Assembly (NCBI RefSeq): GCF_013282725.1
Contig: NZ_CP054043.1
Coordinates: 1,054,001 to 1,118,000, forward strand
Length of the DNA stretch: 64,000 nt
Source of the DNA: Yersinia mollaretii ATCC 43969
Lineage (GTDB): Bacteria; Pseudomonadota; Gammaproteobacteria; Enterobacterales; Enterobacteriaceae
Reading direction: 5' to 3'
Below the pieces are notes generated by a model. The model was given only the letters and a program-made list of their open reading frames with translations. It did not search any database and was not told where the DNA came from. The position numbers were made by a program, and so were the translations under genes. Shown here one piece after another: positions 4,579-22,521 of this stretch (its first letter is position 1; the number at the start of each line of letters is the position of its first letter).

Positions 4579-5979
4579 ATGCAACAGCACTTCCATTTTG
4601 ATGCCATTGTGATTGGCTCGGGTCCTGGCGGTGAAGGTGCCGCTATGGGGTTGGTCAAGCAAGGCGCCCGCGTTGCCGTGATTGAGCGGTACAATAATGT
4701 GGGCGGTGGATGTACCCATTGGGGCACCATCCCGTCCAAAGCATTGCGCCACGCCGTTAGCCGTATTATCGAATTCAACCAAAACCCACTCTACAGCGAC
4801 AATGCCCGAACCATCAGCTCCTCTTTCGCTGATATTTTAAGCCATGCGGATCGCGTGATTAACCAGCAAACCCGTATGCGCCAAGGCTTTTACGATCGCA
4901 ACCACTGCCAGATGTTCTCCGGCGATGCCAGCTTCATTGATGCCAATACAATCAATGTCCGTTATGCCGATGGCACCAACGATACACTGCGCGCCGATAA
5001 TATCGTCATTGCGACCGGTTCACGCCCCTATCGCCCGGCAGGCGTTGATTTCACCCATGAACGTATTTATGACAGTGATACTATTTTGCAGCTCAGCCAT
5101 GAGCCACAACACGTCATTATTTATGGCGCGGGGGTGATTGGCTGTGAATATGCGTCAATCTTCCGTGGCCTGAGTGTCAAAGTGGATTTGATTAATACCC
5201 GTGACCGCTTGCTGGCTTTCCTTGATCAGGAGATGTCAGATGCCCTCTCTTACCACTTCTGGAATAACGGCGTGGTTATCCGCCACAACGAAGAGTTTGA
5301 GCAGATTGAAGGGACGGTTGATGGGGTTATCGTTCATTTGAAATCAGGCAAGAAAGTCAAAGCGGACTGTTTGTTGTACGCCAATGGCCGCACGGGGAAT
5401 ACCAGCGGCTTAGGGCTGGAAAAAATTGGTTTGGAAGCGGATAGCCGTGGCCTGCTGAAGGTCAACAGCATGTACCAGACCGCGCTACCCCATGTGTATG
5501 CCGTCGGCGACGTGATTGGTTATCCGAGTCTGGCCTCTGCGGCCTATGATCAGGGGCGGATTGCCGCACAAGCAATGATCAAAGGTGAAGCCAATGTTCA
5601 CTTGATCGAAGATATCCCGACTGGCATTTATACCATTCCTGAGATCAGTTCTGTCGGTAAAACCGAGCAGGATCTGACCGCAATGAAAGTGCCTTACGAG
5701 GTGGGCCGGGCGCAGTTTAAACACTTGGCGCGCGCACAAATTGTTGGGATGAATACCGGCAGCTTGAAAATCCTATTCCATCGGGAGACCAAACAGATCC
5801 TCGGCATTCACTGCTTTGGTGAACGCGCGGCTGAGATTATCCACATTGGACAGGCCATCATGGAGCAAAAAGGCGAAGGTAATACCATCGAGTATTTCGT
5901 CAATACTACCTTCAACTATCCCACCATGGCTGAAGCCTATCGTGTGGCGGCGCTCAATGGTTTAAACCGCCTGTTTTAG
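4579..5979 (+). CDS. sthA: Soluble pyridine nucleotide transhydrogenase SthA (UdhA)
   Basis: FAD flavoprotein of the cytosol that transfers hydride between NADPH and NAD+, chiefly draining excess NADPH. The 466 residues match the family length. FAD-binding motif [12 protein letters not shown] is at about residues 14-25, the NAD(P) motif [13 protein letters not shown] near 182-194, and the second FAD motif [14 protein letters not shown] near 306. As in other SthA proteins, the first redox-site segment reads [15 protein letters not shown], with Thr where related disulfide reductases have the second Cys. A good -10 hexamer, TATAAT, lies at 4557-4562, 16 bp before the ATG. Its last 18 bp overlap the convergent oxyR. 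Confidence 0.97.
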
Positions 5980-6879
5980 TTCTTCGCTCATGCGTGGTTG
6001 CATGTGCTCACGTATCGCCTCGGCAAGTTGCTCATAGCGGCCACGTAATGGGGAGCCGGGGCGGTAGACCAAAGCAATGGTGCGCTTGGGGACGGGCTTG
6101 TAGCATTCCAGATAGCATACGCCGTCACGCTTTCTTTCATTCGGCACCGCCAATGAAGGCAACAGCGTGATGCCGCTGCCTGCGGCGACCATGTTGCGCA
6201 AGGTCTCTAAACTGGTGGCACGGAAATGCGTGTCCTCTTCAGCGCCCGCTTGGAAGCAAAAACCCATCGCCTGATCGCGCAAACAGTGACCATCTTCCAG
6301 CATCAGCAATTTCTCGCCAGCCAGTTCATGCATCTGCACTCGATCACGATCTGCCCACGGATGATCGGCGTAAATCGCCAGTTGCATGGGTTCGTCAAAC
6401 AGCGGAACTTCAATAAACGCCTCAGTCTCTTTGACCAGTGCCAGAATGGCACAATCCAGCTTGCCACTGTCTAGCTGGGCTAGCAGGTTTTGGGTCTGCG
6501 CTTCATGCAGATACATTTCCAGTTTTGGGAATGCTTGATGCAGCGTAGGAATGATTTGCGGCAACAGATAAGGCCCGACAGTAGGAATCAGCCCGATATG
6601 CAGCGGGCCAGACATGCTTTCGCCCTGTAAACTGGCCATCTCTTTCAGTACTTTGACTTCCCGTAGTACCGTTCTGGCCTGCTCCACCAGCAATAATCCG
6701 GCCTGCGTAAACAGAACCTTACGGCTGGTGCGCTCTAATAGCATCACACCCAACTCATCTTCCAGTTTACGGATTTGGCCGCTTAACGTGGGTTGGCTGA
6801 CATGACAAGAGTCGGCAGCACGCCGGAAATGCCTGAATTCAGCCAGCGCCACCAAGTATTCTAGATCTCGAATATTCAT
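5962..6879 (-). CDS. oxyR: Hydrogen peroxide sensor and regulator OxyR
   Basis: LysR-type regulator that activates peroxide-defence genes after a disulfide forms between two cysteines. The winged HTH is in [22 protein letters not shown] (about residues 18-40, cited in part). The redox motif [13 protein letters not shown] holds Cys199 and Cys208, the same numbers as in E. coli, and the total length of 305 also agrees. The 3' end overlaps the end of sthA by 18 bp. The gene is divergent from a peroxiredoxin-glutaredoxin gene, with repeated ATAG/CTAT half-sites between them, so both promoters are probably OxyR targets. Confidence 0.98.
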
Positions 6880-9796: not shown

Positions 9797-10115
9797 TATC
9801 GAGCATTACACGTACCGCATTACTTGGTCGGCAGAGGATGCTGAGTTCGTTGGTTTATGTGCAGAATTCCCCAGTTTGTCATGGCTGGCAGGGGATCGTA
9901 TCGAGGCACTGACAGGGATTACCACCTTGGTTGCCGATATCCTGCAAGATATGCAAGCCAATGGTATAACGCCACCAGAGCCCTTAGCCGAAAAGCATTA
10001 TAGCGGGAAATTGGTCCTTCGCTTACCCCCTGAACAGCATCGGCGTCTGGCAATTAGTGCCTCAGAAGAAGGGGTGAGTCTAAATCGTTATCTGTGCGCG
10101 CGATTGGCTGTCTGA
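9789..10115 (+). CDS. hicB: HicB-family antitoxin
   Basis: Antitoxin that neutralises the overlapping HicA and represses the pair. Starting at ATG 9789 (MVNIEHYTYRITW) it has 108 residues. The N-terminal half is the HicB-like partial RNase H fold (ITWSAEDAEFVGLCAEFPSLSWLAGD, cited by its key end LSWLAGD). The C-terminal part, KLVLRLPPEQHRRLAI followed by SLNRYLCARLA, is a ribbon-helix-helix DNA-binding segment of the Arc/MetJ type. The longer frame reaching back to 9756 is inside hicA and has no ribosome binding site. Confidence 0.85.
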   Translation: MVNIEHYTYRITWSAEDAEFVGLCAEFPSLSWLAGDRIEALTGITTLVADILQDMQANGITPPEPLAEKHYSGKLVLRLPPEQHRRLAISASEEGVSLNRYLCARLAV

Positions 10116-10122
10116 ATCGGAT

Positions 10123-10163
10123 TTAACGCCACGGGGTGAGCTTTGTCACTCCCGTGGCGTTAA
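10123..10163. terminator. Long palindrome between hicB and hasB, possible bidirectional terminator
   Basis: TTAACGCCACGGG at the left pairs with CCCGTGGCGTTAA at the right, with an inner GTGA/TCAC pair around a short loop. T-tracts are short on both sides, so it may work as a weak terminator for both converging transcripts or as another kind of palindromic site. Confidence 0.6.
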
Positions 10164-10217
10164 ATCACCAACCTCATGAATTGACTTAATTCATAGCAAT
10201 ACTATTCCTAATGACAC

Positions 10218-11045
10218 TCACCGATTTTTATTTTTGAGATCAAAACTAATGGGTAGCGCCAATGTTATCTGCCCATGTGATAGCAACTCGGTAGGGGGTT
10301 TAGGTAGAGGCTGCGCACGTTTGAGCAGTGCCAGAGCTTCGTGATCTAAAATAGCGACCCCGCTGCTATTGATCAGTTGAGCCGAGAGAACATCCCCCTG
10401 TTTATTGACCACAAAACGAATCGTGGCAGTGCCTTGCTGACGCTGTTTTTTGGCGATAGGTGGATAACGTTTATAGCCCATCAGATGCCCTTGTAAGCGG
10501 CTTCTCCAATTCAATTTAATCTGCTGCATATGCAAAGAATCACTGTTGGTCGCGGCGGCAATTTGTTGGTTCTCACCCGACAGTGTGCTGCTGCTGGTTA
10601 CTGCGGAGGGGGCGGGTTTGCTACGATTCACTGGCGTGTCTTCCATGATGGGCTTGCGCGGCTTAATGACCTCTTTTGGTGTTCGTTTGGCTTTAGTCGG
10701 CTCTTTTTTAACTCTCTCTCGCTCTTTTTCAACGATCAGAACTGCATTGGGTTGTTCTGGGGCGGTCAGCAACTCGCTCACTTGCTCTGGCTGACTTTCC
10801 GCTGGTTCAACTTCCGGTTCGCTGACTGCCTGAGTGATACCCACCACCGGGTTTTGTTCTACATTGGGGGTGAACTCTGGCTCGGCTGACAACCCGAGCA
10901 TCACCGCCACCGGATACGGGTAGGGTGGCGTTACCGCGACAGCGGGAGCACTCAACCACCAAAGCAGATATACATGAACACAACTCGCAAATAAGGCACT
11001 TCCCAACCAAAGTAGAATGCGGTTGTTATTCTGTTGTATTTTCAT
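10218..11045 (-). CDS. hasB: TonB paralogue HasB
   Basis: Energy-transducing protein that couples the proton-motive force (with an ExbBD-type motor) to HasR for heme entry. The 275 residues start at ATG 11045. One N-terminal membrane anchor covers about residues 11-35 (LWLGSALFASCVHVYLLWW). A Pro, Glu and Lys rich periplasmic spacer follows (about 60-150), and then a TonB_C domain ending in a pattern that includes YPPIAKKQRQQGTATIRFVV and SSGVAILDHEALALLKRAQP. It is the last gene of the leftward has operon. A housekeeping tonB is expected elsewhere; the has context is what makes this HasB. Confidence 0.9.
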   Translation of the reverse strand: MKIQQNNNRILLWLGSALFASCVHVYLLWWLSAPAVAVTPPYPYPVAVMLGLSAEPEFTPNVEQNPVVGITQAVSEPEVEPAESQPEQVSELLTAPEQPNAVLIVEKERERVKKEPTKAKRTPKEVIKPRKPIMEDTPVNRSKPAPSAVTSSSTLSGENQQIAAATNSDSLHMQQIKLNWRSRLQGHLMGYKRYPPIAKKQRQQGTATIRFVVNKQGDVLSAQLINSSGVAILDHEALALLKRAQPLPKPPTELLSHGQITLALPISFDLKNKNR

Positions 11046-11105
11046 CAATTAAATCACTATATTCCTTTATCTTTAATGAGTTATGAAAATAACTCATCGC
11101 GACAA

Positions 11106-12446
11106 TTACTCTTCGGCAAACGCGACATACAGACGGTCGGTTAGCGGCTTAAACAGATAATTGAGCAATGATCGCTCCCCAGTACGGATAAAAACATCAA
11201 CCGACATACCCGGTCGGATTTTTAGCGGGGTTTGATTTGTATCAATCGCGATAGTTAAAGGGTAATAGGGTTCTAAAGTTTGTGGATGCTGTATGCGATC
11301 AGCCCCAATACGTAATACCGAGCCGTATAATCGTGGGGTAGTACTTTGATTAAAGGCAGAAAAATTAAGGTCGACCGGTAAGCCCACCATGGCTTTATCA
11401 ATTAGCGCCACTGGCAACTGGGCTTCAACTAACAAGGGCTGCCCGCTGGGAACCAGCTCCATCAATGTTTGCCCACTACTCACCACACCTCCGACAGTGT
11501 GTTGTGCCAGTGCAATAATCGAACCGCTGACGGGGGCGATAATGCGGGTATTGTCCAATTCATACTCCGCAACACTCAAACGTTGCGTTAACTCTTGGGT
11601 ACTTTGCTGCGCTTTGGCTAATTGCTCGCGATTCTCACTTTGATACTGTTCGTGCCGTTGTGAAATATGCTGTTCCGTTTCATCAATGAGCTTATAAGCC
11701 TCCGCGATATCGCTGGCGTCCTGCTCAACTCTGGTACGCAGTGAAATGGCCTGACGCTCCATATCCAATAATTGATTTTTGGCAACATGGCCATTTTTTG
11801 CCAACGACTGCACGCCATCCAATTGCTGTTGGAATAGGTCGAGTTGCTGTTGGTTATTATCCCGCAGCACTTGTAATCCACTCTGCCGACTCTGATGGCG
11901 CGTAATTTGTGCAGATAAACGTGCAATTTCACTCAGTTGAGCTTGGCGGCGATGCTGAAAAAGTTGTTGCTGCAAAACAGTGATACGTTCAACCACCTGT
12001 TGCGCGGGATCCTGAAGCAATGCCTCTGGGAAATGAATCTCAGGTAAATCATGTTGCTCGGCGATTAAGCGGGACTCCTGAGCCAGCGCACTGAGGTACT
12101 GATGCTGTAGATTATCCCGATGACTGCGAATCGCAGTATCATCCAGCGTGATGAGTAACTGCCCTTCCGTGACTTCATCCCCCTCGCCGACATGTAATTG
12201 CTGAATTCGTCCGCCTTGTAACGGCTGGATCACTTTACGGTTTTCGGCAACGACAATGTGCCCCATAACCGCAATTCCTTTATCCAAAGGTGCCAGCCCG
12301 GCCCAAAGTAAAAAACCGATGAAGCCTCCAAAGATCAATAATCCACCTAAGCTAAGATAGCTCCCGCTATCGCTTTGTAATGGGGGTAAGTTTTGCTGTC
12401 GGCTGCCCATATCAGTAGTCAGATCACGACCTGTTTCAGGTAACAT
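11106..12446 (-). CDS. hasE: Type I secretion membrane-fusion protein HasE
   Basis: HlyD/PrtE-type adaptor that links the HasD ABC transporter to an outer-membrane TolC-type channel for HasA export. The 446-residue product has one N-terminal membrane segment (about residues 33-52, LGGLLIFGGFIGFLLWAG), a biotinyl-lipoyl-like piece VIQPLQGGRIQQLHVGEGD, a long coiled-coil hairpin rich in Gln and Leu (about 100-280) and a beta-barrel C-terminus with APVSGSIIALAQHTVGG and IRPGMSVDVFIRTGERSLL. GGAG lies 8 bp before ATG 12446. The gene follows hasD by 35 bp. No TolC-type gene is in the window. Confidence 0.94.
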   Translation of the reverse strand: MLPETGRDLTTDMGSRQQNLPPLQSDSGSYLSLGGLLIFGGFIGFLLWAGLAPLDKGIAVMGHIVVAENRKVIQPLQGGRIQQLHVGEGDEVTEGQLLITLDDTAIRSHRDNLQHQYLSALAQESRLIAEQHDLPEIHFPEALLQDPAQQVVERITVLQQQLFQHRRQAQLSEIARLSAQITRHQSRQSGLQVLRDNNQQQLDLFQQQLDGVQSLAKNGHVAKNQLLDMERQAISLRTRVEQDASDIAEAYKLIDETEQHISQRHEQYQSENREQLAKAQQSTQELTQRLSVAEYELDNTRIIAPVSGSIIALAQHTVGGVVSSGQTLMELVPSGQPLLVEAQLPVALIDKAMVGLPVDLNFSAFNQSTTPRLYGSVLRIGADRIQHPQTLEPYYPLTIAIDTNQTPLKIRPGMSVDVFIRTGERSLLNYLFKPLTDRLYVAFAEE

Positions 12447-12481
12447 CGGTTATCTCCCATCCGTGGTATATCTCATTAATG

Positions 12482-14302
12482 TCATGATTTTTGTGATGCC
12501 GTGCGGGCTGATGCGATACCATATGACATGTCGCTACCCCAACTCTTTTTACTATTGAATGCTTTTACATCAGCGTTGACCTTGGACTTGTCCTGCCCCT
12601 TAACGCTTTGTAAAACCGCCTCAGTACGATCAAACAGTTCCATTCGGCCATTATTGAGCAATAGCAAATAGTCACTACCGGATAATAACTCTGGCTTATG
12701 GGTGATCATCACGATGGTGCTGCCCTGCTGTTTGAGTTGGATGATGCTATTCAGTAAGGCTTTTTCACCCTCTTTATCCAGACTGGCATTGGGTTCATCC
12801 AGCACAATAAGTCGTGGTATGCCGTACATGGCCCGCGCCAAAGCAATACGCTGGCGTTGACCGCCGGATAGCCCTTCGCCGCCATCCCCTAGCTGAGTAT
12901 CATAGCCTTGCGGCATATGCAGAATGAGATCGTGCACATCCGCGAACTGCGCTGCTGCGATCACTTTTTTGGTATCAACCGGGCCAAAGCGCGAGATATT
13001 TTCAGCAATCGACCCACGAAATAGCTGGATATCTTGCGGCAGGTAACCAATAAATTCCCCTAAGCGGGTTTTATCCCATTGCGCAAGATTGGCACTGTCT
13101 AAGCGAACTGAGCCGCTAAAGGCGGGTTTACATGCTACCAATAGTTTCGCCAAGGTAGATTTACCACTACCCGACGGCCCCAAAACACCAAGGACATCAC
13201 CGGGTTGCAACTCAAAATTGATGGCCTGTAACACCGGAATATGGGTGCCAGGTTTACAAACGGTTAGCTGTGTCACACTCAATTTCCCCGTTGGGGGAGA
13301 GAGATGCATACCCGTCTGTTCGGGTGGGTGCTGCGCCAATAAGTCAGAGAGTCGTTGATAAGCCAATCGGGCATGACTCCACTGTTTCCAGACCGCAATT
13401 AATTGATCAATTGGGCTTAATACCCGCCCAATTAAGATAGAACCCGCAATCATGACGCCCGCCGTAATTGCGCCATCAATAACCAACAATGCGCCCAGAC
13501 CTAGCATCATTGATTGCAGCGCCTGACGGCTGGATTTAGATAAGGCGGTGACGCGACTACTTTTATCGCTGGCAATATTTTGTTGATAGAGGAAATGTGA
13601 ATGCTGCTTAAGCCAGCGTTCGCGCATGGCTTTTAGCATCCCCATCGCTTCAATGGCATCGGCGTTACGCAAATTCGCATTGGCTTGTTGAGTGGCCTGT
13701 GAGGTGATGTTTGATGCTTCTTTCAGTGGTTTTTTACATACCCAATGATTAAGCCATGCCAGAAAAATAAGCATACAAGCACCTGCCGCAGCCAATGCGC
13801 CTAACCATGGATGGAGCAGAAAAATGACAAACAGATAAAATGGGAACCAAGGTGCATCGAAGAAGGCGAAAAGTGCGTTGCCGGTGGCAAATTGACGCAA
13901 AGCTGTTAGGTCATTCAATGCTTGAGCTGCTGGAGTTTTATGACCCATCAGTTGTGAGGCAAATGCAGCATTAAATACCTGCTGATTAAGTTGCATATCA
14001 ATGCGAGTTCCCAAACGGATAACCACCGCACTTCGAACCCACTCTAAAAGCCCAATAAATACAAATATACCCAGCACCAATATAGTGAGCATCAATAATG
14101 TCATGGTATTCGCTGACGCAAGAACACGGTCATAAACCTGCAACATATAAATAGCAGGGGCAAGCATCAATAAATTTATTACCGCTGTAAATAACCCAAT
14201 ACCCCAAAGGTTTTTTTTGTGATGGGTGAGAACGGAGAGAATAGTCGGTGAAGATGATGAAAAACCGGTATTATTACTTGATTCCATGGCGTCCATTTCC
14301 AT
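12482..14302 (-). CDS. hasD: Type I secretion ABC transporter HasD
   Basis: Inner-membrane ABC exporter of the PrtD/HasD class that recognises the C-terminal signal of HasA. The membrane domain (about residues 30-320) contains INLLMLAPAIYMLQVYDRVL, typical of the family, and there is no C39 peptidase domain. The nucleotide-binding domain has Walker A GPSGSGKSTLAKLL (near 373), Q-loop GYLPQDIQLFRGS, signature LSGGQRQRIALARAM and Walker B RLIVLDEPNASLD. The start is uncertain: ATGs at 14302, 14296 and 14287 are in frame and none has a strong ribosome binding site. Five hasA genes upstream suggest that it exports several substrates. Confidence 0.95.
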   Translation of the reverse strand: MEMDAMESSNNTGFSSSSPTILSVLTHHKKNLWGIGLFTAVINLLMLAPAIYMLQVYDRVLASANTMTLLMLTILVLGIFVFIGLLEWVRSAVVIRLGTRIDMQLNQQVFNAAFASQLMGHKTPAAQALNDLTALRQFATGNALFAFFDAPWFPFYLFVIFLLHPWLGALAAAGACMLIFLAWLNHWVCKKPLKEASNITSQATQQANANLRNADAIEAMGMLKAMRERWLKQHSHFLYQQNIASDKSSRVTALSKSSRQALQSMMLGLGALLVIDGAITAGVMIAGSILIGRVLSPIDQLIAVWKQWSHARLAYQRLSDLLAQHPPEQTGMHLSPPTGKLSVTQLTVCKPGTHIPVLQAINFELQPGDVLGVLGPSGSGKSTLAKLLVACKPAFSGSVRLDSANLAQWDKTRLGEFIGYLPQDIQLFRGSIAENISRFGPVDTKKVIAAAQFADVHDLILHMPQGYDTQLGDGGEGLSGGQRQRIALARAMYGIPRLIVLDEPNASLDKEGEKALLNSIIQLKQQGSTIVMITHKPELLSGSDYLLLLNNGRMELFDRTEAVLQSVKGQDKSKVNADVKAFNSKKSWGSDMSYGIASARTASQKS

Positions 14303-14424
14303 ACAAATACAGAGGCTTTCGTGATTGATTTAACTTTATGCATAATGTCTATTTGATTTATTAGAATGCAATATTTATCAGAGCACACTCATTTTCAGTC
14401 TTAATGAGCTCAGAGGGAGAATAT

Positions 14425-14479
14425 TAATCACCGCCAATAAAAAAATTAATATCCCCAAAAAAACATGGCGGTGATATTT
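14425..14479 (-). promoter_or_regulatory. Hairpin between the last hasA and hasD
   Basis: AATCACCGCCA (14426-14436) pairs with TGGCGGTGATATT (14466-14478) across an A/T-rich loop. In the leftward transcript it lies about 70 nt after hasA5 and 120 nt before hasD. Such a stem can act as a partial terminator or as a 3' stabiliser that keeps hemophore mRNA more abundant than exporter mRNA, a pattern known from has and prt type loci. The role here is inferred. Confidence 0.6.
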
Positions 14480-14549
14480 TGCCCAACTCAATAGCATTTA
14501 ATCTGAAGATCATTTCCTGATGACTATTTTAGGCAACCTATAAGATATT

Positions 14550-15161
14550 TTAGGCGGCTAATAAGATAATAGTGACGTCAGTTCCATCAGCCATACCTAC
14601 AGTGTTAATAATGATTGGCGCATCGGCTAAAACTTCACTCGTCATATCGAACTGACTAGCGATAGCCATATCTTTCAGTGGTGTATTGATATCAATACCT
14701 TTGGCTTGGAGCACGTCCAGCAATGGGGTTGCATTGCCACACATCAACCCATAGATGACCTTGTGTGTCTCACCCTGTTGGTTCTCTGCCATCGTTTTGG
14801 TGGCATCATATTCACCAATAATATCTAGCCCGCTTAATATCAGTTGCCGCTCATCAAGCTGTTGACTATTAACGCCAAAGTCATAGTGATCACCCAGATC
14901 CAAGTTTTCAATTTTACCGTAGAAAATACAGGGCTGGGCAGCGCAACGTATACTCCCTTGGACAACCATTGCCGCCTCAGTTCCATGAGAGCTACCCACG
15001 GTATATTGATTGTGAGAATCACCAACAAAGTCGCCCGTAAAGGTGCCATAATCTTTCCATTCTGCCTGCCTTATATCACCATTTTTCGTCGCCCATGCTT
15101 GAGTATAAGAAGAGAGGGTAGAATCAGCGAACTTACTATTATATTGAATTGTTACTGTCAT
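14550..15161 (-). CDS. HasA-like secreted protein, copy 5, with Cys replacing both heme-loop ligands
   Basis: Fifth HasA paralogue, 203 residues, with no N-terminal signal peptide; the C-terminal end TIILLAA is a type I (HasDE) secretion signal. The fold-defining stretches NSKFADSTLSSYTQ, YTVGSSHGTEAAM and LSGLDIIGEYDATKT are present. In the heme loop, copy 1 reads Y-A-F-A-A-H and this copy reads C-A-A-Q-P-C in the same frame and spacing: Cys73 stands for the iron-binding Tyr and Cys78 for its His partner (segment GSIRCAAQPCIFYGKI). A third Cys lies in GLMCGNATP. Residue 32 is Gln. It may bind heme through thiolate, form a disulfide, bind a metal, or not bind heme. It is the copy nearest hasD. 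Confidence 0.88.
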   Translation of the reverse strand: MTVTIQYNSKFADSTLSSYTQAWATKNGDIRQAEWKDYGTFTGDFVGDSHNQYTVGSSHGTEAAMVVQGSIRCAAQPCIFYGKIENLDLGDHYDFGVNSQQLDERQLILSGLDIIGEYDATKTMAENQQGETHKVIYGLMCGNATPLLDVLQAKGIDINTPLKDMAIASQFDMTSEVLADAPIIINTVGMADGTDVTIILLAA

Positions 15162-15188
15162 AATAAAATCCTCTTCTGTCTTTGCCGT

Positions 15189-15785
15189 TTAGGCCGCTAT
15201 TAACATTGCCGAGTCGAAATCATCAGTCATACCAATTGTGCCAATAATTGGCGCATCAGCTTGAACTTCACTCGGAGAATCAAATAGACTGGCGATAGCC
15301 AGATCTTTCAGTGGCGTATTGATATCAATACCTTTGGTCTGGAGTATTTCCAGCAATGGGGTGGCATTACCGCACATTAAGCCATAAATAATCTTGTGTG
15401 TTTCACCCTGTTCATTCTCTGCCATCGTTTTAGTAGCATCATATTCGCTGGTAATATCAAGCCCACTTAATTTCAGTTGCCGCTCATCAAGCTGCTGACT
15501 AACAATATCAAAATCATAGTGATCACCCAGTTCCAAGTTTTCAATTTTGCCATAATAAACGACAGCAGAACGTATATTACCTTGCACAATCATTGCAGCC
15601 TCAGTTCCATGAGAGCTACCCACTACATATTGGTTCTGAAAATCACTAACAAAATCACCATAAAAAGAGCCAAGATATTTATGTTCTATCTCTCTTATAT
15701 CACCATTTCTCGTCGTCCACATTTGAGTATAAGAAGAGAGGGTAGAATCAGCGAATTCGCTACTATATTGAATAGTGACTGTCAT
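15189..15785 (-). CDS. HasA-like secreted protein, copy 4, with shortened heme loop
   Basis: Fourth HasA paralogue, 198 residues, close relative of copy 5 in its N-terminal (IQYSSEFADSTLSSYTQ) and middle (GDHYDF, QQLDERQLKLSGLDI) parts. The C-terminal signal SAMLIAA is kept. The segment that holds the iron-binding Tyr and His in classical HasA is cut by three residues compared with copy 5 and reads GNIRSAVVYYGKI, so neither ligand is in place; the two Tyr belong to the strand after the loop. Copy 5 has Cys where this has Ser73. It is 27 bp from each neighbour. It is intact and has a ribosome binding site, so it is not an obvious pseudogene. Its ligand is unknown. Confidence 0.87.
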   Translation of the reverse strand: MTVTIQYSSEFADSTLSSYTQMWTTRNGDIREIEHKYLGSFYGDFVSDFQNQYVVGSSHGTEAAMIVQGNIRSAVVYYGKIENLELGDHYDFDIVSQQLDERQLKLSGLDITSEYDATKTMAENEQGETHKIIYGLMCGNATPLLEILQTKGIDINTPLKDLAIASLFDSPSEVQADAPIIGTIGMTDDFDSAMLIAA

Positions 15786-15812
15786 AATAAAATCCTTTTC
15801 TGTTTTTACCGT

Positions 15813-16484
15813 TTAGGCCGCCATTAACATGGCCGAGTCAAAATCATCAGTAATACCAATTGCATCAATGACTGGTGCATCAGTCAGAACTTCACTCGTC
15901 GTATCAAACGGACTAGCAATCGCCATCTCTTTCAGTGGGGTATTGATCTTAATACCTTTGCTCTTGAGTATTTCCAGTAATGGATCAGCATCGCCCCGCA
16001 TCAAACCATCAATGACCTTATGCACCTCACCTTGTTGGTTCTCTGCCGTTGTCTTGTTCGAATCAAACTCACTGGTAATATCCAACCCGCTCAATTTCAG
16101 TCTCGCTACCTCAACCTGTTTAATAAACTCTCCAGGAATTGGCATCAAGCCGTCACCCAATGTCACGCTATCTATTTTTCCTGAGAAAGTCTTATTATGA
16201 CGATAACTCAGTATCGATGACTTTAGATCTCCTTCCACTATCGTCACTGCATCATTTACCGTTACTGCGTCATTTTCAGTAGCACTATCAACTAATATAT
16301 ATTGGTACCCGCTGTAATCACCGCTGTTAACAGTTGCAGTGAAGTCAACATACATTTTAGCTAATACTTGTGGCTGTGTTGTCTCTGTTATATTACCTAT
16401 GTTTACACTACTATTCTTAACACAATTAGCGAGTGTACAATTTTCGTGATCTGAACTGCTATATTTGATCGATATATTGGTCAT
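15813..16484 (-). CDS. HasA-like secreted protein, copy 3, with enlarged loop and divergent N-terminus
   Basis: Third paralogue and the longest, 223 residues. The first 90 residues diverge strongly from copy 1 and include an inserted stretch with repeated NDAVT; two Cys occur near residues 16 and 21. From residue 100 onward it is a normal HasA (FSGKIDSVTLGDGL, LKLSGLDITSEFDSNKT, GLMRGDADPLLEILKSKGI) and it ends in SAMLMAA. The loop reads SSILSYRHNKTF: it is longer than in copy 2, the position of the ligand His is Lys98, and Tyr94 and His96 are nearby but displaced. Heme binding through Tyr94 is possible but cannot be assumed. Confidence 0.86.
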   Translation of the reverse strand: MTNISIKYSSSDHENCTLANCVKNSSVNIGNITETTQPQVLAKMYVDFTATVNSGDYSGYQYILVDSATENDAVTVNDAVTIVEGDLKSSILSYRHNKTFSGKIDSVTLGDGLMPIPGEFIKQVEVARLKLSGLDITSEFDSNKTTAENQQGEVHKVIDGLMRGDADPLLEILKSKGIKINTPLKEMAIASPFDTTSEVLTDAPVIDAIGITDDFDSAMLMAA

Positions 16485-16519
16485 AAAAATATCCTTTTCT
16501 ATCTGACTTTATTAACTCA

Positions 16520-17161
16520 TTAGGCCGCCATTAATATTTCGGCGCTATCAGATGTGCCGACGGTATCAACGACGGGTATATCGGCCATAACTTCGTTAGT
16601 CGCACTAAATTGGCTGGCGATTGCCAGATCTTTCAGTGGCGTATTGATATCAACACCTCTGGCCTGAAGTATTTCTAGTAATGGTTCGGCATTACCCCGA
16701 ATCAAACCATCAATGACTTTATGAACCTCACCCTGGTGGTTCTCTGTTATTGTTTTGCCTGCATCAAATTCACTGGAAATGCCCAACCCGCTCAATTTTA
16801 GTTGCGATTCATCAAGCTGTTTACCCATTCCATCAGGATTAGGGTTCAAGTCTTTACCCAGCATCAAACTCTCTATCTTGCCGTAAAAGGTATACTGAGG
16901 TGTATGGGAGTAGAATAAACTCCCTTCGACAATAATATCAGTGTTACTTTTGCAACTGGTGCCTGCATCAATGCCAATAAAATCGTAACCTACCGCATCG
17001 TCAGAAGAGTCATCACACATGCTGGCTAATGCCTGTGCTTCTTTTGTCTCCGTTGTATCATTACTTATTGTCTCTTTTCTATTCTTTACTTTCAGGGTCT
17101 GACTATAACTCGCGAGGGTAGCACTTCCTAATGGAGCATTAAATTGAATGCTTACGGTCAT
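16520..17161 (-). CDS. HasA-like secreted protein, copy 2, with the loop His changed to Tyr
   Basis: Second paralogue, 213 residues, ending in the secretion signal AEILMAA. The segment GSLFYSHTPQYTFYGKI keeps the Tyr ligand (Tyr84, equivalent to Tyr75 of Serratia HasA), but the His that supports it is replaced by Tyr90; His86 lies two residues after Tyr84. The stretch of residues 22-70 differs from copy 1, is hydrophilic and includes Cys49 and Cys70, and the region around residue 32 has no His. Downstream motifs LSGLGISSEFDAGKT and GLIRGNAEPLLEILQARGV are typical. It begins the cluster of four variant copies after a 203-bp spacer with a hairpin. Confidence 0.87.
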   Translation of the reverse strand: MTVSIQFNAPLGSATLASYSQTLKVKNRKETISNDTTETKEAQALASMCDDSSDDAVGYDFIGIDAGTSCKSNTDIIVEGSLFYSHTPQYTFYGKIESLMLGKDLNPNPDGMGKQLDESQLKLSGLGISSEFDAGKTITENHQGEVHKVIDGLIRGNAEPLLEILQARGVDINTPLKDLAIASQFSATNEVMADIPVVDTVGTSDSAEILMAA

Positions 17162-17264
17162 AAATAATATCCTTTTTAAATAAAAAATATTACTCGTTGC
17201 TGAGTAATACCCCGATATTCATATTTAAAAACAATATAGATAACACAATCACAATTAGGTATTA

Positions 17265-17320
17265 AATAATGTGAGCCACCGCCGTAGCCAATATACCAGA
17301 GTGCGGCGGTGGCGCATTTA
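17265..17320 (-). promoter_or_regulatory. Strong hairpin between hasA1 and hasA2
   Basis: GCCACCGCCG (17275-17284) pairs perfectly with CGGCGGTGGC (17304-17313), with a loop of 19 nt. On the minus strand it lies about 50 nt after the hasA1 stop and has no long T-tract (TTAAATCACC... nearby is AT-rich). Its stem resembles the CACCGCC stem after hasA5. It probably protects the hasR-hasA1 part of the mRNA or partly stops transcription before the variant copies. Confidence 0.65.
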
Positions 17321-17364
17321 CTACCTAGTCAGAAAATCCTTTTCTGTCTGGCTTTCTTAGGCAC

Positions 17365-17967
17365 TTAGGCCGCCATCAATATTTCAACATTGTCAGATGC
17401 ACCAACTGTATCAACGACAGGTGAATCAGCCATGACGTCACTGGTGGTATCAAGCTGGCTGGCGATATCCAGATCTTTAAACTTGGTATCCACATCAATG
17501 CCTTTGGCTTTGAGGATGTCCAACATTGGATCGGCATTGCCTTTCATTAAGCCATGTACCGATTTCTGCATATCAGTATCACGATTTTCGGCCACTGACT
17601 TGGCAGCATCAAATTCACCAGAAATATCCAGACCGTTAAAGGTGACTTGCACATCTGCAAAAGCTTTACCCACACCATTAGAATTAGCAATTAATTCATG
17701 ACCAAACTGCATGCCAGTTATTTGACCATGGAAAGCATGGGCTGCAAAAGCATAGCTTAAAGTCCCTTCAACAATCATCCCCATATCAGTACCGTGAGAA
17801 CTGCCTATGGAATATTGGGTACCATCAAGCATTCCCCCGCCAGCAAACTGACCACGATCTTTGGTTGCCGCTTGATCTATATCACCGAAGTTCTCAGCCC
17901 AGTTATTAAGATAAGAAGTGATGCTGTGATCAGCAAACTCGCTGTTATATTTAATGGTTGTACTCAT
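17365..17967 (-). CDS. hasA: Heme-binding hemophore HasA, copy 1 (canonical)
   Basis: Secreted extracellular hemophore that captures heme and hands it to HasR. The 200 residues lack a signal peptide and end in VEILMAA, the HasDE signal. Both classical loop residues are present in GTLSYAFAAHAFHGQI: Tyr72 (Tyr75 in Serratia) and His77 (His83). Residue 32 is Gln, as in Y. pestis HasA, not the His of Serratia, so heme would be held by Tyr alone on the iron. The other strongly conserved stretches are NNWAENFGDIDQAA and VHGLMKGNADPMLDILKAKG. It follows hasR by about 100 bp and is the copy most like known Yersinia HasA. Confidence 0.95.
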   Translation of the reverse strand: MSTTIKYNSEFADHSITSYLNNWAENFGDIDQAATKDRGQFAGGGMLDGTQYSIGSSHGTDMGMIVEGTLSYAFAAHAFHGQITGMQFGHELIANSNGVGKAFADVQVTFNGLDISGEFDAAKSVAENRDTDMQKSVHGLMKGNADPMLDILKAKGIDVDTKFKDLDIASQLDTTSDVMADSPVVDTVGASDNVEILMAA

Positions 17968-18069
17968 AATAATATCCTTTTAATTAATGATTACCACTCC
18001 GAAATATAGCTTATTGCTAAGCTATTCACTCAATAGGTAAATAATATATTCACCTAAAGACTTTATAAC

Positions 18070-20586
18070 TCAAAATTTATACTCAAAACCACCCTGAATA
18101 GTTCTACCACGATTCGGGGCAAAAGAGAGTGTATCTCCATAGCTGACTAAATATGCACGATTAGTTATATTTTCTATTGAACTTCGTAGCGTTAAACTAT
18201 TAGTCACCTTATAGCTAGTATAGAGATCTAATATTATATACTCGGGCCAATCTGCCACATAAACAACATTGGGCAACCCATATTTATTAAGCACCGACTT
18301 ATCCTGATGTCCTTTGTTATAACGGATAACAGTGCCGAGATCCAGCTTTTGATCAAATATTCTTCCGCCGAAATTAAAGCTACCACGATCGCCGGGCAAA
18401 TAAGCTGATGAGCCAAATGACGCACTTGCCGCATAACATTCAATTCTATTATTCATGTCAGGATCATCAACTGGATAACGCTCTTTTTTATTGATTCGTT
18501 TACCTTTTTGCACTCCACCTAACCAAGCCACTTTTGAACATATATTATTTTCACCAATCATTCTGGTATAATTTATATTTGTATAAAATAACCCAGCATC
18601 ATAACTTAATTGATATTCCAGACCACGAAAATAAGTTTGCAGTAAATTATTTACATAGGTTACATCAGTGAAAGATCCGCCACCCAATTTTGGTCTCGTC
18701 TTGGATAATTGAAGATTGGCATAATTACTCACTCGGGTATCAAAATATGCCACCTTAGCCACAAAGCGATCTTCACTGATAAACAGACCCGTTTGTTGAA
18801 TATTAACACCCAGCTCCCATGCTTTAGAATGCTCCGCTGCCAACAAAGGGTTGGGTAAAACCCACCCATGACCGTGTGCACTGCCCGTCGCCAACGCCTC
18901 CGTCATTGCCGGTGGTCGCCAGGATTTACCATAAGTGCCAAAAAACTCTAGCCACTGTGCGCCGGGCTTAATACCAACCGCCGCCGTGGGTGAAAGTTGC
19001 CGTTCATGGCGATCCACATCCCAAGTCATCATTGATAGAACAGTAGATGAACATCGTGTGTTTGCTCTTTCGGATTGCTCATCTCGTTTGGGGTCACAAG
19101 GGTTCTCAAGGGTATAGGGTTTGCGGAACCCTTTGACATACATCCAGGTATTACCCTGCAAACGAAACTGGTCATAACGCAACCCCCCTTCCAGCCGCAG
19201 CCAATCAGCATAATCGTAATTAAGCTGGGCAAAAGTACTGGTGATTGTCCGCTTACCCGGGGGGGTTAACCCATTCACACTCATGCCCACAGGGGTACGT
19301 TCAATCATATAGTCGTTGGTTGTATTGCCTCTGGAGCGGTCACTAAACCACTCAAGGCCATAGTTGATGCGTAATTGATGTTGGTCGTCGGGGGTAAATA
19401 AACTGCTGTTTTGCAGTTGTAGACCTTGGGTTGTTAAACGGGTTTGAGTCCAGAATGGTTTTCGAAAAATAGTGTTTGCATTATGTGTATCGGTTATATC
19501 ATCAGTATCAACGTAATAGATTTTTGCTGTTAGATCCAGCCAGGCAATGTGCTCCGGCTTTAAGCTATAATCTAGCCCAATATTACGGTTGTTCACTTCA
19601 GTCATACTGCTGCTCAGCCAACCGTATATCGGGGTTGACATATTAAGACCTACCTCGGTAAATATACCCGCATTGGGGCTGTCTACTTGGGTTTGTAGAT
19701 AACTGAATGCCAAGCGCTGATCAGCGGATACATTCCAACCTATTTTTGCCAACTGCGAATGCATTTTAAAATCAGTAAATGAGACTTTTTTCTTTTTCAG
19801 GGCAGTATCAAATATTGTATGGTTATATTTAGATCCAATGCGAATTTCACCAAGTTCTCCCTTATTACCCGGCCAGTAATCTTTCAAATTACGTTCACTG
19901 GTCGCTAATAATATATCACCATACTCATTACCCACCGCCAGCATTGCGCTGCCAATAAACTGGGTGCCATTATCTCCGGTCATGGCGCGTACTTTACCGC
20001 CAATCTCTTTTCCCGGCTCAAGAAAATCGCTGGCATTGATGGTATTAAAGGTGGCAATCCCGCCAATCATACCCGCACCGCCAATACCACTGATCGCGCC
20101 TTTCTCTATTATGACGTTACTCAGAATTTCCGGATCAATATACATTACGCCATTGCGTTGACCGTGGCCGCTTTTCATAAAATTCTGTCGCATCCCGTCA
20201 ATATTCATATTCACGCGGCCAAAATCTTGCATACCACGGATATTGATCGATAACCCTGGCTCTTGCTGGCTAACACTAGAGTAGACTCCCGGCGTTTGCT
20301 CTAATATATCCGCTGCATGGCGCGCGGGTCGGTTATCCATTTGTTCACGGGAGATTTCGCTAACCGAGCGTATTTCATCATAGACCCAGTCGCCCTCATA
20401 AGCATGGCTCGCCTCTTCGACTTTGAGCTTATCCAGCACCATGTCATTTTTATTCGGTGGTGCCACTGCGGTTTCAGCTTTAGCACTCTCTGAATAGCTT
20501 TGCGCCGTCAGAGCTAAAAATATACCGAGGGCGATTTTATTCAGCGCGTTTATTGTTTCTTTTTTATCTCTAACCATACTATCCAT
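18070..20586 (-). CDS. hasR: Hemophore receptor HasR (TonB-dependent heme transporter)
   Basis: Outer-membrane receptor that takes heme from HasA and imports it with TonB/HasB energy. The 838-residue product has a signal peptide (about residues 10-37), the TonB box DKLKVEEAS at 52-60, a plug with RPARHAADILEQTPGVYSS and LSINIRGMQDFGRVNMNIDG, and a 22-strand barrel ending in GGFEYKF with the expected final Phe. The segment SAHGHGWVLPNPLLAAEHSKAWE matches the NPNL region of receptors (its ends are SAHGHG and SKAWE) and gives a His next to it, as in HasR family proteins. The TonB box comes right after the signal peptide, so there is no STN signalling domain. In-frame Met at 20577 is an alternative start. 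Confidence 0.95.
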   Translation of the reverse strand: MDSMVRDKKETINALNKIALGIFLALTAQSYSESAKAETAVAPPNKNDMVLDKLKVEEASHAYEGDWVYDEIRSVSEISREQMDNRPARHAADILEQTPGVYSSVSQQEPGLSINIRGMQDFGRVNMNIDGMRQNFMKSGHGQRNGVMYIDPEILSNVIIEKGAISGIGGAGMIGGIATFNTINASDFLEPGKEIGGKVRAMTGDNGTQFIGSAMLAVGNEYGDILLATSERNLKDYWPGNKGELGEIRIGSKYNHTIFDTALKKKKVSFTDFKMHSQLAKIGWNVSADQRLAFSYLQTQVDSPNAGIFTEVGLNMSTPIYGWLSSSMTEVNNRNIGLDYSLKPEHIAWLDLTAKIYYVDTDDITDTHNANTIFRKPFWTQTRLTTQGLQLQNSSLFTPDDQHQLRINYGLEWFSDRSRGNTTNDYMIERTPVGMSVNGLTPPGKRTITSTFAQLNYDYADWLRLEGGLRYDQFRLQGNTWMYVKGFRKPYTLENPCDPKRDEQSERANTRCSSTVLSMMTWDVDRHERQLSPTAAVGIKPGAQWLEFFGTYGKSWRPPAMTEALATGSAHGHGWVLPNPLLAAEHSKAWELGVNIQQTGLFISEDRFVAKVAYFDTRVSNYANLQLSKTRPKLGGGSFTDVTYVNNLLQTYFRGLEYQLSYDAGLFYTNINYTRMIGENNICSKVAWLGGVQKGKRINKKERYPVDDPDMNNRIECYAASASFGSSAYLPGDRGSFNFGGRIFDQKLDLGTVIRYNKGHQDKSVLNKYGLPNVVYVADWPEYIILDLYTSYKVTNSLTLRSSIENITNRAYLVSYGDTLSFAPNRGRTIQGGFEYKF

Positions 20587-20904
20587 TTATGAGAACCCAT
20601 CCTTATTAATACAAAAAACAATATGTATACTCATTATTGTTACTTCATGACATGCACGATAATTTTGGCAATAGTTACCCACACCGAATAATAGAAATTA
20701 TCGGATAATTAATATGTTGTGACTTTCTATAAAATAGGGAAATAAATTAACCCACACAGAGGGAGGTTAAATTGAAAAAATAAAAACAATTATTTTATTA
20801 GTCGGTAAATTAATATTTCTGATTAACCTCTTCAGTTATTAGAATTGACTTAAATTTCTTTAATTCCTTAATGCTAGTAGAGGTTTTACCACAACGCCAC
20901 CATT
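20587..20904 (-). other. Long hasR leader, no gene
   Basis: About 320 bp of AT-rich sequence between the Fur box and the hasR start. A 16-codon frame (ATG at 20600, minus strand, MGSHKWIVWLEIKKKQ) overlaps the hasR start in another frame, but its AAGG lies directly on the ATG, so translation is doubtful; the same AAGG is 18 nt from the hasR ATG, which is too far. No other gene is visible. Confidence 0.45.
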
Positions 20905-20925
20905 TGATAATGATTATCATAATCA
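20905..20925 (-). promoter_or_regulatory. Fur box upstream of hasR
   Basis: GATAATGATTATCATAATC at 20906-20924 matches the 19-bp Fur consensus at 18 of 19 positions. It should repress the has operon when iron is plentiful. It lies about 320 bp before hasR, so either the leader is long or the site covers an upstream promoter. The argH side is convergent, which leaves hasR as the only sensible target. Confidence 0.88.
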
Positions 20926-21085
20926 TTTGCGGATATAAACTCAATGCCATTCCAGTATAAAACAGTATGTGTCTGAGAATATTGATTTTATAGAAATTTT
21001 AAATAACCGTGGAATAAGGATTGCTGTAACGTGAGTTAATTTTTTCTGAATGAGATGATTAGCGAGGGGAAAATATAATTCAGTT

Positions 21086-21126
21086 TTTATAATGAAAAAT
21101 GGGCCACTTGTTGAAGTGACCCATTA
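21086..21126 (-). terminator. Rho-independent terminator after argH
   Basis: Minus strand AATGGGTCACTT and AAGTGGCCCATT form a stem with one bulge, followed by TTTTTC. It ends the argCBH transcript. Confidence 0.85.
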
Positions 21127-21147
21127 TCGATATGACGGCTTGGCGAA

Positions 21148-22521
21148 CTACAGTAGGCGCGCTTTAGCCTCAGCAATAGCAAAAGCCACTTGCTGTGGTG
21201 AAACCCCACCTTTAGCGACGCGTTTATCCAGACAGGATTGCAGCGCCAAAATCGGATAGACATCATCACCAATGACTGCACTGAATTTCTGCAAGTCACT
21301 GAGCGATAACGCCTCCAGTGCTTTGCCCTGCCGAATAGCCTCAACCACCGCTTCACCCACAATGTGGTGCGCTTCGCGGAACGGCACACCTTTAGCGACC
21401 AAATAGTCAGCCAGCTCTGTGGCATTGGCATAGCCCTGCTCTGCCGCTTCTTTACAACGTAGGCGTTTTACTTGAATGCCATCCAACACCAGTGCGGCCA
21501 TATGCAGGCAGTCTAGCCAAGTGTCGAGCGCATCAAACAGCCCTTCTTTGTCTTCCTGCATGTCTTTGTTATAAGCCAGAGGCAAGCCTTTCAGCGTCAT
21601 CATCATCCCGGTCAATGCGCCTTGTACCCGACCACACTTACCACGGATTAATTCTAATGCATCTGGGTTTTTCTTTTGCGGCATCAGGGAGGAGCCTGAG
21701 GTCACGCGATCAGATAAGTCAACAAACGCCGCTTCGCCACTGTTGAAGAAGATGAGGTCTTCCGCAAAACGAGACAGATGCACCATGCCGATGCTGGCAT
21801 CGGACAGCAGTTCCAGCACATGGTCGCGGTCAGAGACACTGTCGAGACTGTTGCGTGTCGCCGAGGCAAAACCTAGCCAGCTCGCCAGTTGTTCACGGTC
21901 GATAGCATAGGCTGTCCCCGCCAATGCGCCAGAACCCAATGGGCTGACATCAAGGCGTTTTAGGGTATCTTGCAGACGACTTTCATCACGCGCGAGCATT
22001 TCAACATAAGCCAGACACCAGTGCGCAAAAGTCACCGGTTGGGCGCGTTGCAAGTGGGTATAACCCGGCATCACCGCATCCTGATTGGCTTCGGCAGTGA
22101 TCACCAGCGCTTGCTGCAACTGCTGCACAGCGGTTTTTAATTCAGTTATCTGGAATTTGCACCACAATTTTAGGTCCGTCGCCACTTGGTCGTTACGGCT
22201 CCGACCCGTGTGCAGTTTTTTGCCTAAATCGCCCACTTTGCCAATCAGTTTGGTCTCTACCCAACTGTGGATATCTTCCGCATCACTGGTCAAAATGGCC
22301 TGTGGATCGGCCTGTACTTCTTCCAACAAAACAGAGAGTGCCTGCTCAAGTTGCTGCTGCTCGGTAGCCGTTAATACACCCACCGTGACCAGTGCTTTCG
22401 ACCAAGCAACAGAACCTATAATGTCCTGCTCTGCCAGTCGGTAATCAAACCGCAGGGAGTCATTGAATTGCTTAAAACGCTGATCTGCTGCCTGACTAAA
22501 CCGTCCGCCCCACAATGCCAT
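21148..22521 (-). CDS. argH: Argininosuccinate lyase ArgH
   Basis: Last enzyme of arginine synthesis: splits argininosuccinate into arginine and fumarate. The 457 residues match E. coli ArgH in length. Family landmarks are [19 protein letters not shown] at the start, [19 protein letters not shown] near residue 107, [16 protein letters not shown] [16 protein letters not shown] near 155, and the fumarase/lyase signature [15 protein letters not shown] near 280 with the mobile catalytic Ser. It is the last gene of a leftward argC-argB-argH cluster and is followed by a strong terminator. Confidence 0.98.

Follow-up and report, generated by a model that had tools for sequence, protein, structure and literature searches.

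The Has systems described from Yersinia pestis/Y. pseudotuberculosis and from Serratia marcescens contain one hasA each, and the available portions of PMC9627568 and PMC6981324 describe haem binding via His32 and Tyr75 in Serratia HasA, with His83 close by, and via Tyr75 in Y. pestis HasA. A locus with the same gene set, gene order and protein families was analyzed in a 64,000-nucleotide stretch of Yersinia mollaretii ATCC 43969 (NZ_CP054043.1, positions 1,054,001 to 1,118,000 of the forward strand; hereafter the window). It differs from the known systems in carrying five hasA genes, three of them with neither ligand residue, while a Y. pseudotuberculosis-like genome (G022) also has one. The new finding is the ligand loss in the extra copies: as judged from sequence, the first gene alone looks like a full hemophore, and it is accompanied by several tail-bearing HasA-fold proteins, most of them lacking a haem ligand. 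The five open reading frames of the HasA family (PF06438), all intact, are flanked by hasR and hasD (residues in Y. pestis HasA numbering):

17365..17967, minus strand: hasA1, 200 amino acids, PF06438 202.6 bits, canonical hemophore with Gln32, Tyr75 and His81
16520..17161, minus strand: hasA2, 213 amino acids, PF06438 134.2 bits, Tyr75 retained and His81 replaced by Tyr, diverged head with 28% identity to hasA1
15813..16484, minus strand: hasA3, 223 amino acids, PF06438 114.4 bits, Ser/Lys at the ligand positions, predicted HasA fold
15189..15785, minus strand: hasA4, 198 amino acids, PF06438 126.2 bits, shortened ligand loop without Tyr75 and His81
14550..15161, minus strand: hasA5, 203 amino acids, PF06438 141.1 bits, Cys/Cys at the ligand positions, 76% identity to hasA4

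All five copies exceeded the PF06438 cut-off of 26.3 bits (114-203 bits) and were the only matches in the 4.60-Mb genome, confirming the five intact tandem hasA-like genes proposed by a sequence-only reading of the window. Each gene has an ATG start after an AGGA-type ribosome-binding site and encodes an Ala-Ala C-terminus, and copies 2-5 are tightly clustered with spacers of 35 (hasA2-3), 27 (hasA3-4) and 27 (hasA4-5) base pairs (bp), both as that reading had described (27-35 bp); the gap between hasA1 and hasA2 is 203 bp. At an E-value of 0.001, Pfam detected nothing besides HasA in the five copies, the NEAT sequence profile included, and NCBIfam gave no match for them. The window copies are assigned to the HasA fold, which for hasA3 is a prediction, and hasA1 is closest to the solved HasA of Y. 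pestis/Y. pseudotuberculosis. The nearest proteins with a named source were from Y. mollaretii for copy 3 (94%), copy 4 (90%) and copy 5 (77%), and for copy 2 a protein labelled Y. enterocolitica (90%) followed by one from Y. mollaretii (89%), which fits Y. mollaretii or a close relative as the source of the window.

The haem-ligand residues were compared among the 67 HasA genes found by a PF06438 search in 25 Yersinia genomes, the window's own included, all of which had HasA. His81 in Y. pestis numbering occupies the alignment column of Serratia His83. Tyr75 was present in 25/25 first copies and His81 in 24/25 (the exception has Tyr), with both in 24/25. The 42 extra copies had Tyr75 in four cases, His81 in six and both in one. 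Within the window, positions 75/81 were Tyr/His in copy 1, Tyr/Tyr in copy 2, Ser/Lys in copy 3, Ser/gap in copy 4 and Cys/Cys in copy 5, and a second alignment placed a gap and Val at the ligand positions of copy 4. The axial pair of Tyr75 and His81/83 was thus complete only in copy 1, in line with its earlier description as canonical, half present in copy 2 and absent from copies 3, 4 and 5; by these residues copy 1 is classed as a hemophore and copies 3-5 as HasA-like. Because the heads align poorly, the loop segment was also scanned for Tyr or His at any position, and Tyr was missing from 31/42 extra copies, with 19/42 lacking His as well. Nine aligned rows near copies 4 and 5 (P0001-P0009, including copy 4 itself and an identical fragment) had Tyr in column 75 in 0/9. 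Copies 3-5 probably hold no haem in the manner of HasA. Many extra copies carry the database label 'heme acquisition protein HasA', and by alignment 38/42 lack the haem-gripping Tyr75. As a separate observation, the two ligand positions of hasA5 are both Cys, and the protein has three Cys altogether; Cys is absent from 19/25 first copies.

Conservation was scored over 50 reference columns, defined as positions identical in at least 23 of the 25 first copies. The extra copies retained most of these columns in the N-terminus (117/126), residues 19-34 (112/168), the C-terminal helices (392/546) and the export tail (292/336; 87%). They retained fewer than half in residues 60-72 (33/84), in the strand that we take as the first to dock with HasR (73/210), at the end of loop A1 (52/168), in residues 106-140 (62/210) and in the ligand loop (42/168; 25%). 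Window copies 2-5 retained 8, 7, 7 and 8 of 8 tail columns, copies 4 and 5 retained 4/5 columns of the presumed first docking strand, and heads inside one array were strongly different. By alignment, all five window copies retain the HasA N-terminus, C-terminal helices and export tail. Six single-copy HasA proteins from other genera each kept 4/4 columns in the ligand loop, 4/4 in loop A1, 2-4/8 in the tail and 1/5 in residues 106-140. Orthologues elsewhere thus appear to have kept the haem site and changed the tail, whereas paralogues in the same operon appear to have kept the tail and lost the haem site; most simply, the tail would still be under selection by the exporter, and the head no longer under selection by haem.

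The features of a type I secretion substrate, a conserved uncleaved C-terminal region and a gene beside the exporter, were found, with hasD and hasE adjacent. The conserved portion covers the region that the exporter would be expected to recognise, and it is therefore very probable that HasA1-HasA5 all exit the cell via HasDE and a TolC-type channel. The proposal that different proteins share one exporter is supported by kept tails on divergent heads. The accompanying suggestion of one secretion and uptake machine is supported for the exporter; a common haem-uptake route for all copies is not supported, as copies 3-5 lack both ligands and the first docking strand is poorly kept, though copies 4 and 5 retain most of its columns and the region of the second strand is largely preserved. 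Multi-substrate type I exporters, of which we take Serratia LipBCD to be an example, resemble HasDE here in that one exporter serves several substrates. The substrates of exporters such as LipBCD come from different families, unlike those of the has array, all of which are same-fold paralogues encoded together in a single operon.

Multi-hasA arrays are common yet variable across Yersinia. The number of copies per genome was one in six genomes, two in seven, three in five, four in three and five in four, so that 19/25 have 2-5 copies, and an array peculiar to the window strain was ruled out. The family survey called for by the sequence-only reading found multi-copy arrays in most of the sampled genomes, but not the same array with a known function in all relatives: arrays vary between species, and no functional study of hasA paralogues was found in the literature searched, which mostly excluded subscription papers and in whose available text ligand loss is undescribed. 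The order hasR, hasA copies, hasD, hasE, hasB was seen at 25/25 loci and argH adjoins the locus at 23/25, the remaining two stretches ending short of argH. The Ala-Ala end is not genus-wide (52/67 copies; 24/25 first and 28/42 others). Outside Yersinia, a family-wide sample contained HasA in 11/295 genomes, four of them Yersinia and the other seven with one copy apiece. In two other genera, HasA was found in 11/30 and 19/25 genomes, with a single copy in 30/30 of the bearers among the 55 searched; three of the seven non-Yersinia bearers of the family-wide sample are shared with this survey. A class-wide sample had HasA in 1/369 genomes and is little informative on single copies elsewhere, because the sole bearer was the window's genome. 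A contig scan with copy 5 returned one relative, in a Pseudomonas, and a profile built from all 42 extras matched 135 proteins; among the 120 listed, all with an organism given were Yersinia, in a search that depends on shared short words and could miss distant relatives.

The extra copies appear to be maintained. Open frames were found in 67/67 copies, a count that remnants decayed beyond profile match would escape. The ratio of nonsynonymous to synonymous substitution rates (dN/dS) was estimated pairwise by the Nei-Gojobori method for 22 hand-chosen pairs, giving 0.14-0.50 in 15/15 extra-copy pairs and 0.10-0.78 in seven first-copy pairs, where the value of 0.78 rests on a dS of 0.03. The values for the 15 extra-copy pairs argue that these copies are not decaying, and no decay of extra copies was seen in the 25 genomes. 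Single-linkage clustering of the heads at 50% identity gave 13 classes, of which 11 had at least two members. Between two species, class heads were more alike than HasA1 heads in 23/78 pairs and not in the other 55. Database proteins named Y. enterocolitica represented six extra-copy classes beside HasA1 (labels as listed, source names unchecked). Avoidance of two copies of one head class in an array was not significant (1 observed vs 3.5 expected, P value = 0.10).

Mosaic genes were identified by DNA comparison. The pair G023_1/G023_2 has up to 98% identity in the tail vs 36-58% in the head, and G019_1/G019_2 and G018_2/G018_3 are further such pairs, indicating tail gene conversion for a few pairs at the sequence level. 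Of 79 within-genome between-class pairs, seven had a tail identity above the 99th percentile set by 1750 between-genome pairs, and a single event probably accounts for two of these. A slight within-genome excess was also present in the N-terminus, head and C-helix (P value, 0.002 to 0.006; tail, 2 × 10−6), and part of the tail excess may be general rather than tail-specific. The nearest copy by protein identity lay in the same genome for 2/67 heads and 4/67 tails, counts that alone do not demonstrate tail conversion. In the tree, 36 extras from other species formed a clade (support 92) that excluded the four window extras, which were placed next to two extras from related species; the grouping of all extra copies was weakly supported (53), so that one or several origins are both possible.

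To account for these results, we tentatively favor one Fur-controlled operon in which the true hemophore HasA1 is joined by lineage-specific HasA-fold paralogues acting as accessory capture proteins. The heads of copies 3-5, and perhaps of copy 2, would be freed from canonical haem binding, and the diverse heads would hold haem sources, e.g. host haemoproteins, for HasA1 to strip; that the extra copies act in this particular way is conceivable, with the balance somewhat against it. The array would grow by tandem duplication, the heads would diverge and the tails would be partly homogenised by gene conversion. In broader terms, and again short of an even chance, the has operon in Yersinia may have become an export platform: one true hemophore would be followed by a shifting set of secreted proteins that share a tail and carry exchangeable heads, most of which would not bind haem, with a partner for each head class and conversion matching tails to the local exporter. 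If the extras are secreted accessory binders, the one-hemophore view of the Has system would be incomplete for most sampled Yersinia species, and the locus would show, in compact natural form, how a scavenger fold can acquire new ligands while its export signal stays. It would also become testable which non-haem ligands the HasA fold accepts and which portion of HasA is recognised by the HasD exporter.

Several observations weigh against this interpretation. The head alignments are loose, and the loop segment contains Tyr somewhere in 11/42 extra copies and Tyr or His in 23/42. Copy 2 retains Tyr75, and four of the nine copy-4/5 relatives have Phe75 plus Tyr two residues further, so that shifted ligation is possible there. 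Residues 85-105, the region containing the second HasR-docking strand, are well kept in the extra copies (66/84), and the outgroup contrast comprises six sequences, four of them near-copies. The Tyr75 of copy 2 and the nearby Tyr of the Phe75 relatives are in favor of the main rival, a rather unlikely one, in which all copies are still haem-binding hemophores and the extras use other residues (shifted Tyr, Cys, His, Met), differing in affinity or haem source. The Cys/Cys pair of copy 5 and the one first copy of the genus that has Tyr instead of His81 are likewise consistent with it, as is the rescue of haem ligation by another residue in NEAT proteins, described in the accessible part of PMC4143258. 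It is opposed by the loop segments devoid of Tyr, or of both Tyr and His, and by the conserved columns, of which just 52/168 were kept in loop A1 and 42/168 in loop A2.

It is unlikely that the extras bind non-haem ligands or partners, such as other tetrapyrroles and host or bacterial surface molecules, apart from haem supply. The loss of the ligand loop and the diversity of the heads, with 13 or more classes at a 50% identity threshold and each class maintaining its own sequence, would fit such a role, but the operon and the iron-type control region are the same as those of the haem system. Decoys or HasR plugs, i.e. apo-like proteins occupying HasR against phages, bacteriocins or competitors, or diverting antibodies, are quite improbable. 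Copies 4 and 5 combine a largely retained presumed first HasR strand with absent haem ligands, and their ligand loop changes at the strain level, but that strand is lost in most extras and the pairwise measure indicates purifying, not diversifying, selection on within-class heads, which also leaves little support for the antigenic faces suggested earlier. Functionless neutral tandem duplicates heading for loss are barely credible and decaying duplicates were rejected, since all copies found are open with constrained dN/dS and a selectively kept tail, even though copy number varies from one to five among species and one related genome has a disrupted hasR.

Related systems are described in the literature. 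In a genome paper (PMC3079665), the Y. enterocolitica 8081 genes lacking in strain W22703 include 'hemophore YE0125-YE0126' and a 'heme acquisition system YE0123-YE0126', and a W22703 hemophore cluster is also named; YE0123-126 is named a heme-protein acquisition system in the accessible text of PMC2266911. The first listing thus already has more than one hemophore gene, probably at the locus of the window array; the available portions of both papers give neither a ligand analysis nor head classes nor a function. A table of the Y. enterocolitica transcriptome during infection of wax-moth larvae (PMC9718411) includes hasA, with the direction of change not readable in the available text. A parallel is provided by NEAT domains without the haem tyrosine (Staphylococcus aureus IsdB-N1 and IsdH-N1/N2; Bacillus anthracis IsdX2-N2), in which, according to the available text of PMC4143258, a haem fold is reused without its ligand beside true binders, as in the has extras, and IsdX2-N2 contacts haemoglobin. 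NEAT domains are an unrelated fold with a different secretion route in Gram-positive bacteria, and are a parallel in working, not a relative of HasA.

The hasA copies share their orientation with one hasR, hasD, hasE and hasB. These genes and the sites around them are as follows:

20906..20924, minus strand: Fur-box-like site upstream of hasR, 18/19 match to what we take to be the Fur consensus, the window's best
18070..20586, minus strand: hasR, 838-amino-acid TonB-dependent haem/hemophore receptor, sole full copy in the genome
17324..17364, minus strand: stretch of 41 bases directly after hasA1 that is similar to the short spacers between hasA genes; it includes a ribosome-binding-site core but is followed by no gene of its own
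17275..17313, minus strand: perfect 10-bp inverted repeat with a loop of 19, GC-rich, between hasA1 and hasA2
12482..14302, minus strand: hasD, type I secretion ATP-binding cassette permease/ATPase
11106..12446, minus strand: hasE, HlyD-family adaptor
10218..11048, minus strand: hasB, TonB-like energiser

The site upstream of hasR points to iron (Fur) control of the has operon. A HasR query gave one full match in the genome and seven partial ones with 26-36% identity. The stretch at 17324..17364 may be a scar of a lost hasA copy formerly after hasA1. The inverted repeat occurs once in the window and in 0 of 100 shuffles, and the terminator-like call inside it was at chance level. Promoter-like (12 vs 22.3 in shuffles) and terminator-like (5 vs 4.8) scans showed no excess over shuffles, and Rfam gave no match in window positions 10000-21500. 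At L044 ~5595-6317 (G011, matching Y. hibernica), an inserted element that resembles IS1 in its translation splits hasR in two pieces, and both hasA copies are open. Among the has-operon proteins compared other than HasA, HasB was the most variable, with a mean pairwise identity of 0.56 vs 0.80 for HasD (25 genomes).

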